Assembly: GCA_040756435.1 (NCBI GenBank) | Contig: JBFLZD010000005.1 | Coordinates: 1 to 64,000, forward strand | Direction of reading: 5' to 3' | Source of the DNA: Spirochaetota bacterium | GTDB lineage: Bacteria > Spirochaetota > UBA4802 > UB4802 | Length of the DNA stretch: 64,000 nucleotides | Shown here: piece after piece, positions 1,947 to 4,107 of the stretch | Numbering within the stretch: position 1 is the first letter of the stretch | Layout of the letters: each line of letters opens with the position of its first letter | Translations under genes and position numbers: made by a program | The notes under the pieces: generated by a model | Database searches by the model: none | Seen by the model: only the letters and a program-made list of their open reading frames with translations | Told to the model about the DNA's origin: nothing

Positions 1947-3533
1947 CTACAACTTTACTTCAATCTTTTCTCCAATATGGTTGCGCTGCTTTATATATTC
2001 AAGCTTATTTAACGCATCAACAAATGAAAGGATACCTGCCACCGAAATGTCAATATTAACACCATTGCCAAATACTTTGAGCTGTCGCCCATTTATTTCT
2101 TCAACCACTGTTACCGTTACCTCACACAATGCATCTGATCCGCCAGTGATAGCAACTAAATTGAAAGATTCTATCTTTGCCGTAGTACCGGTAATCTTTT
2201 TAACAGCATTAATACCGGCATCTACACCACCGTTGCCATGAGCCACATCAAATGTTTCAACACCATCATTGTAGCGGTCTTTAATGGTTACCAGCGTCAT
2301 TGGTGGCGAATACATACCGGTTGAAATCTGTACATTGGTAACTTTATAGCGCCCCTTCATCTTGTACACTGCTTCGCCTACCAGTACTTCTAAGTCTTCA
2401 TCAAATATCTGTTTCTTTTTATCAGCAAGCACCTTAAAGAGTTTGAAGAAACGTTCTAATTCCTCATCGGTGAGGTTATAGCCCAAACTGTTCAACCGCG
2501 CAATAACTGCATGGCGGCCTGAGTGTTTTCCCAGTACCAGCGTTGATCTGGTAATTCCTACATCTTCAGGTTTCATAATTTCATACGTCATTGCATTTTT
2601 CAGTACACCATCCTGATGTATACCTGATTCATGGGCAAATGCATTGGCACCCACAATCGCCTTATTTGGCTGCACCCCAACACCGGTAATATGTGTCAGA
2701 AGCTTTGATGTTGACATGATTTGTTTTGAATTGATATCAGTATACACCTGAAATTTTTCACCCCGTGTTTTCAATGCCATTACCAGCTCTTCCATGGCGG
2801 TATTGCCTGCACGCTCACCAATACCATTAACAGTACACTCCACCTGCCGTGCACCGGCTTCTATTGCAGCCAGCGCATTTGCTGTGGCAAGCCCTAAGTC
2901 ATTATGGCAATGCACTGATATAATTGCCTTATCAATATTTGGTACGGTATTGAAAAGAAATTTTATAAACTCATGAAACTCCGATGGGATTGCATATCCC
3001 ACAGTATCAGGGATGTTCACAGTTGTAGCGCCAGCTTTAATAACTGCTTCCACCATCTGTGCTACATAATTCCAGTCGCTTCGTGTTGCATCCATTGGCG
3101 AAAATTCAACATTAGAGGTGTATTTTGCAGCATGCTTTACTGCATCAACAGCTATCGCCAAAACTTCTTCACGAGTCTTTTTAAACTGATACTGAATATG
3201 AATATCCGAGCTTGAAATAAAGGTATGAATACGTGGATTTTCCGCATACTGCAATGCATCCCATGCCACATCAATGTCTTTGAAGTTGGCACGCGCAAGC
3301 CCTGCCACCTGAACCCCTTTTACTCTTTCGGCAATGCGTTTTACCGCTTCAAAATCACCCGGTGATGAAATGGGAAATCCAGCTTCAATAATATCCACTC
3401 CCAATTTTACAAGCTGGTCAGCAAAATGAAGTTTTTCATCAATGTTCATGCTGAAACCCGGCGCCTGTTCACCATCACGCAATGTTGTATCAAATATAAA
3501 TACTTTATTTTGTTTTGATTTTGTTACTGTCAT
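1947..3533 (-). CDS. leuA: 2-isopropylmalate synthase
   Basis: Condenses acetyl-CoA with 2-oxoisovalerate to form 2-isopropylmalate, the first committed step of leucine synthesis. The 528-residue protein has the HMGL-like barrel with [15 protein letters not shown] near its start and the metal-site segment [14 protein letters not shown]. It also has the C-terminal LeuA regulatory domain (about residues 380-520) that gives leucine feedback inhibition. ATG at 3533 is preferred because AAGGAGATAAGGAT precedes it; an upstream in-frame ATG at 3566 lacks such a site. It is the first gene of a leuA-ygiQ transcript and is preceded by a leader peptide and terminator typical of transcription attenuation. 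The other leu genes (leuB, leuC, leuD) are not in the window. Confidence 0.95.
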
Positions 3534-3644
3534 ATCCTTATCTCCTTTACCTGTAGTTGATATCATAATTTAGAGGATAATTTCATGATAATAATTTTTT
3601 GTAGTAATCGTTGGGGATTCATCCCTCTACACCTCCAGTGCATA

Positions 3645-3678
3645 TAAAATAAAACCGCCACGGGGTTTCCGTGGCGGC
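3645..3678 (-). terminator. leuA attenuator terminator
   Basis: On the minus strand, arm CCGCCACGG (3677-3669) pairs perfectly with CCGTGGCGG (3663-3655) around a 5-base loop and is followed by TTTTATTTTA. It sits between the leader peptide and leuA. The preceding segment GGGGTTTCGTG (3716-3706) can pair with CACGGAAACCCC of the terminator's 5' half. An earlier segment, TCACGAACCC, can pair with that segment in turn. This is the 1:2 / 2:3 / 3:4 arrangement of amino-acid attenuators. Confidence 0.85.
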
Positions 3679-3704
3679 ATACAATTTCACTATACCAATA
3701 CCTC

Positions 3705-3797
3705 TCACGAAACCCCTGTTGCGGTTTTTCCCAATAGTAGTAGTCCTAAAAGGTTAGCTATGTTATAAAGGGTTCGTGAAATCATAGTAGATGTCAT
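3705..3797 (-). CDS. leuL: leu operon leader peptide
   Basis: A 30-codon frame on the minus strand starting at ATG 3797, with an alternative ATG at 3785. Its core reads NLLGLLLLG, with leucine codons CTT, TTA, CTA, CTA, CTA and TTG, three of them the same codon in a row. A stop at 3705 falls about 30 bases before the terminator hairpin. Slow translation at the leucine run would favour the antiterminator pairing and let RNA polymerase reach leuA. No strong ribosome binding site is visible, so which ATG is used is uncertain. The leucine run, terminator position and mutually exclusive pairings make the assignment strong. Confidence 0.85.
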   Translation of the reverse strand: MTSTMISRTLYNIANLLGLLLLGKTATGVS

Positions 3798-3824
3798 AAT
3801 AGTAAATACACCAGTTTTGAATTC

Positions 3825-3853
3825 CAATTAATCACACAATGCATAATTGTCAA
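3825..3853 (-). promoter_or_regulatory. Candidate promoter of the leu leader
   Basis: Minus-strand TTGACA (3853-3848), a 17-base spacer and TAATTG (3830-3825). The -35 box is perfect and the -10 box is weaker. It lies about 30 bases before the leader-peptide ATG. Confidence 0.55.
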
Positions 3854-4107
3854 TATATTTTAATTATTACATAATAAAATTTTACTCACTTATTACGTTT
3901 CGGTAAAATCCAGGTAAATGAATACACTTTTATTGTACTTCTATACCGTTTCACCTGTATCTTTTCACTGATAAACAATCTATTTATAAACCTGTTTGCG
4001 TTTAACTAAATTTTTATAAATAATTTAACACTTGCCATTATTGCCACAATACTATAGACTCCATTTCCAGCAGGTTATACTATTCATACTATGGGAGCAC
4101 ATACTTT

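Follow-up and report, generated by a model that had tools for sequence, protein, structure and literature searches.

The window, a 64,000-nucleotide stretch of DNA from a Spirochaetota bacterium, carries on its minus strand the gene leuA (1947–3533) followed by a gene of the ygiQ family (288–1937). It belongs to a 3.6-Mb draft genome, and the relatives with which it is compared here are genomes from the same genus, family, and order. The leuA product is a 2-isopropylmalate synthase of 528 aa, scoring above the curated cut-offs of both NF002086 (746 bits, cut-off 532) and TIGR00973 (683 bits, cut-off 599). It is therefore an enzyme of the leucine pathway, and the gene behind the leader described below makes the very amino acid that the leader would sense. 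The closest named homologue is 89% identical and derives from 'Spirochaetia bacterium UBA2205', while the next ones, at 70–80%, all come from Spirochaetota metagenome assemblies. The start of leuA is preceded by a good Shine-Dalgarno sequence, AAAGGAG. The second gene encodes a radical SAM protein (TIGR03904, 648 bits, cut-off 462) and begins with a TTG located 9 nt past the leuA stop codon, which is overlapped by the AGGA Shine-Dalgarno motif of this TTG.

Upstream of leuA, on the same strand, lies a small open reading frame of 30 codons plus TGA (ATG at 3797, TGA at 3705; 3705–3797), which encodes the peptide MTSTMISRTLYNIANLLGLLLLGKTATGVS and has a weak Shine-Dalgarno sequence. Within the stretch NLLGLLLLG, six of nine residues are leucine, a density reached by three of the 843 short ATG frames in the 64-kb window. 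The control codons CTT TTA GGA CTA CTA CTA TTG occupy 3732–3752 and contain three CUA codons in succession. Around and behind this run, four segments can be arranged in mutually exclusive pairings. Segment 1, the protector arm TCACGAACCCTTT (3767–3779), pairs with segment 2 as TCACGAACCC/GGGGTTTCGTGA. Segment 2, CAGGGGTTTCGTGAGAGG (3701–3718), is the 5' arm of the antiterminator and has the leader stop codon inside it; it pairs alternatively with segment 3 (3662–3673) as GGGGTTTCGTG/CACGGAAACCCC. Segment 3 is in turn common to the 5' arm and loop of the intrinsic terminator (3:4), which spans 3644–3678 together with its T tract. The terminator stem CCGCCACGG/CCGTGGCGG at 3678–3654 has nine perfect base pairs, or ten when a G-T pair is counted, with the loop AAACC, and is followed by the T tract TTTTATTTTAT. 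Its G-C pair count is the highest among 11 terminator-like sites within 6 kb, and its end lies about 111 nt before the leuA ATG at 3533. The initial annotation had placed just such an arrangement at 3645–3853, that is, a 30-codon frame with six leucine codons in nine, exclusive pairings, and a perfect 9-bp terminator with T tract shortly before leuA; all of these elements are confirmed in the sequence, and the limits given are right, as a TTGACA box begins at 3853.

This box forms part of a putative leader promoter at 3826–3853 of the minus strand, composed of TTGACA (3853–3848), a 16-nt spacer, and TTAATT (3831–3826), the latter a weak match to the −10 consensus. Of the 32 loci, 22 have a TTGAC motif 28–66 nt 5' of the leader start, compared with 1.1 expected from shuffled sequences. 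The −35 box also sits in a longer conserved stretch, CGTAAATAATATTGACA, found at 3848–3870 in the window as well as in several of the loci L006–L018 and in L071, which represent several families; this stretch may act besides the attenuator, as an UP element or regulator site. Additionally, there is a weak promoter-like match at 3591–3562, between the terminator and leuA. Such matches are no commoner than in shuffled sequences, and this one, if real, would bypass the switch.

The arrangement is conserved throughout the order. The comparison covers 32 leader loci, comprising 30 leuA loci of the order, the window's included, and two from a public genome collection. A leucine-rich leader frame with 5–7 leucines per nine residues precedes leuA in all 32, so that the leucine codons predicted for the leaders of relatives are present in every leader examined. 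Six leucines in nine residues are reached by 27 of the 32 real leaders versus 2 of 1920 dinucleotide-model shuffles of the upstream regions, and the leucine-rich frame is therefore not a product of chance. Only the leucine run and the C-terminal residues dictated by segment 2 are kept in the peptide, which otherwise varies freely. In the RNA, the leader stop UGA and its adjoining bases are almost invariant, most loci have TCGTGATGT around the stop codon and GGCCGTCAC as the 5' arm of the terminator, and the terminator begins 22–29 nt past the stop codon in 32 of 32 loci. Moreover, the terminator helix covaries. Two-sided changes are found at 6 of its 14 pairs, 93.7% of the cells are paired (none of 500 shuffles is as high), and 32 cells carry two-sided changes as against 8.0 in shuffled alignments (again 0 of 500). 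For the antiterminator helix, whose 5' arm runs across the stop codon, the share of paired cells is 82.9%, compared with 26–55% when it is slid. Nearly all sequences keep its core paired, with two-sided changes at two pairs; covariation is only moderate here because the core hardly varies. Thus, the comparative evidence supports the leader peptide, the attenuator, and leuA as its target, all three of which had been proposed from the window sequence alone.

The choice of leucine codons provides a further signature. CUA accounts for 64 of the 248 leucine codons in the leaders (26%) versus 10 of 1063 (0.9%) in the leuA genes behind them (p about 5e-39), and for 48 of 2089 (2.3%) in 62 flanking genes. 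A rare control codon is what would be expected of a sensitive stalling sensor. The control codons of the enteric leu leader, leuL, are likewise biased towards CUA.

Folding of the leader RNA is consistent with a switch that is decided while the RNA is being made. The 180-nt leader of the window folds at −51.4 kcal/mol (z −3.8 versus shuffles), and its 3' piece, beginning past the leucine run, refolds into the antiterminator (z −4.0). A ribosome was represented by deleting all sequence as far as its downstream edge; the nascent RNA was then folded to the terminator loop, with the last arm absent. For a ribosome halfway through the leucine run, the 2:3 pairing has a mean of 0.78 (0.89 in the window), compared with 0.37 for shuffles, whereas with the ribosome at the leader stop codon it falls to 0.10 (0.08 in the window). 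This nascent-fold pairing exceeds that of shuffled controls at p<=0.05 in 27 of the 32 loci. In the ribosome-free leader of the window the 2:3 pairing is 0.09, consistent with a protector pairing 1:2, which can be seen in the fold of this leader. Across the loci, 1:2 complementarity measured by the longest run is above shuffles in 9 of 32, the window not among them, and the corresponding energy z-scores are weak (mean −0.8). As 1:2 is weak in many relatives, this third, translation-independent state is perhaps not a general one, and it is not claimed here as conserved. A ribosome stalled late in the leucine run would, besides, not directly cover segment 1. When folding is carried to equilibrium after a ribosome stall, the completed terminator beats the antiterminator in most relatives, and 6 of the 32 leaders, including that of the window, switch. 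Since the terminator is favoured at equilibrium in most relatives, the switch would have to be kinetic and decided during transcription.

A covariance model of the part from stop codon to terminator (R1) was searched against 59 whole genomes. Strong matches (E 2e-11 to 1.3e-5) occur in 37 genomes, exactly the 37 that encode this leuA, and every one of them lies directly 5' of leuA. Five of the matched genomes (G020, G023, G033, G039, and G041) had been excluded from the training set. Among the 59 genomes, those of the order without this leuA and those of other Spirochaetota yield no strong match, and matches away from leuA are weak, with E above 7e-4. Likewise, no convincing leucine leader was found upstream of 20 leuA genes (45–53% identical) in other families of Spirochaetota. 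In several other Spirochaetota (G049, G054, G067, G073, G077, and G082; loci L189–L191 and L193–L195), the LeuA frames contain one or two TAA or TGA codons within the matched part, which are perhaps frame ends or pseudogenes. Within the window's own genome, no convincing leader was found at the ilvB and leuC-like genes, and none at hisG and pheA. As to gene content, the f3 genomes G007, G012, G016, and G024 are without this leuA, and the f5 genomes G018, G026, G030, and G032 have leuA and give no trpE match. The distribution of amino-acid pathways in the order looks patchy, although several assemblies are incomplete.

These features very probably represent a classical ribosome-mediated transcription attenuator of the leu type, responsive to charged tRNA-Leu and controlling leuA as well as, in the window's genus, probably ygiQ. 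In the proposed mechanism, transcription would start behind the putative promoter and the leader frame would be translated as it emerges. When leucine is plentiful, the leading ribosome would reach the leader stop codon inside segment 2 and thereby cover this segment; segment 3 would then be available for the 3:4 terminator, and transcription would halt near 3645. When leucine is scarce, the ribosome would stall in the leucine run, and the uncovered segment 2 would pair with segment 3 ahead of the synthesis of segment 4. This 2:3 pairing would pre-empt the terminator, allowing leuA to be transcribed. If the leader were not translated at all, 1:2 and 3:4 would form together and transcription would again halt.

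Other explanations of a structured leader deserve consideration. Strong conservation of structure and sequence is also a property of riboswitches, T-boxes, and protein-binding leaders, in which a ligand or an RNA-binding protein would control the terminator and the leucine-rich frame would be incidental. Such a reading is very unlikely here, as it does not account for the leucine run and the frame in which it is read, for a stop codon inside segment 2, or for the CUA bias, and a large aptamer would fit nowhere between promoter and terminator except in the frame itself. Searches of the window and six other loci gave no Rfam family at threshold, neither the Leu_leader nor the T-box models among them, and no credible one below it. 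The matches obtained at permissive thresholds lie far below the gathering scores of their families and look like chance. It is also highly improbable that the region is a short constitutive leader in which a plain terminator causes partial termination, or that it encodes a hydrophobic leucine-rich small protein acting in trans. The peptide is indeed short and hydrophobic, but it is free to vary outside the leucine run and the C-terminus imposed by segment 2, while the antiterminator pairing is kept; furthermore, the element is found only before leuA, which argues against both versions.

The position of ygiQ raises the question of which gene the attenuator serves. The gene follows leuA by 9 nt in the window and is close to it in two further genomes of the genus, as might be expected if the element primarily controlled ygiQ. 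This reading is contradicted by synteny and is extremely unlikely: the leader is also found before leuA in the order's other families, where ygiQ is not adjacent and occupies another place in the genome. As ygiQ neighbours leuA only in the window's genus, it is a late neighbour, and the leucine attenuator belongs to leuA. Within the genus, adjacency is found in all three genomes with an assembled junction; of the other members, G001 has a contig end that truncates ygiQ, and G003 is without leuA and ygiQ. The 9-nt gap, the overlapping Shine-Dalgarno motif, and this adjacency make co-transcription likely, and the two genes probably share one transcript in this genus only. Accordingly, the suggestion of the initial annotation that the attenuator also governs ygiQ is plausible for the genus and does not extend to the rest of the order. 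The adjacency is a local arrangement and tells little about the function of YgiQ.

Leucine is apparently not the only amino acid handled in this manner. Before trpE of the window genome (L148, G000:C67, at 12191, minus strand) there is a leader peptide, MKITLLTFAINNSWWWWTNMMST, with four tandem tryptophans (WWWW), and two GC-rich terminators lie 3' of it. Frames with at least three tryptophans in seven residues precede 20 of the 30 trpE loci of the order; besides L148, these are L152, L155, L158, L160, L161, L163–L171, and L174–L178. From such sequence features, a trp attenuator before trpE is likely in this order too. With tryptophan-run leaders standing beside leucine leaders, the lineage seems to use attenuation habitually. 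That leucine and tryptophan attenuation arose independently in the order, and that the extension to ygiQ reflects a real link of the uncharacterised radical SAM enzyme YgiQ to leucine or translation status, is nevertheless an unlikely combination.

Comparable leaders are known from several other groups of bacteria. The enteric leu attenuator (leuL-leuABCD; Rfam Leu_leader) and other proteobacterial leu leaders likewise consist of a short frame with a leucine run and exclusive antiterminator and terminator helices directly before leuA. Unlike them, the Spirochaetota element has its stop codon inside the antiterminator core; its target is leuA alone or leuA-ygiQ rather than the leuABCD of the enteric operon, and it has no Rfam match. 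Leaders of alphaproteobacterial type (for instance at L085, L087, L093, L108, L111, and L112) are short leucine-rich frames at about −150 to −220 relative to the leuA motif, with a peptide other than that of the Spirochaetota, such as MAYAPTLFGLLLRLTRP. Upstream of a Fibrobacteres leuA (L077:3010-3065), a short leucine-rich frame, MTQTIQQSLFLLLQLHKG, lies at about 240–290 nt, and a clear T-tract terminator is not seen in this leader. In Staphylococcus aureus, a member of the Firmicutes, the ilv-leu attenuator combines a leucine-responsive leader peptide with a downstream intrinsic terminator; it is located before ilvD, includes isoleucine codons as well, and has been tested in part with mutants (PMC5794164). 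The mechanism proposed for it is the same as that proposed here. The LEU element of Actinobacteria is a frame with a run of leucine codons 5' of leuA, in which the leucine codons and the leuA Shine-Dalgarno sequence are predicted to pair as a pseudoknot (PMC1262725), whereas the Spirochaetota leader has a clear intrinsic terminator 111 nt before leuA instead.

According to a 2010 survey, leader-peptide systems for amino acids had been known only from Proteobacteria and Actinobacteria, to which the survey itself added Firmicutes (PMC2965389). No earlier report of an amino-acid attenuator in Spirochaetota was found in the open-access literature. The mechanism is thus that of the textbook, and its conservation throughout one Spirochaetota order is new to the phylum as far as that literature goes. 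The leader set from 37 genomes represents an Rfam-ready family that current annotation has missed. Moreover, since the element is conserved throughout the order and was found at none of 20 leuA genes elsewhere in the Spirochaetota, the origin of the switch, by repeated invention or by transfer, is open to test.
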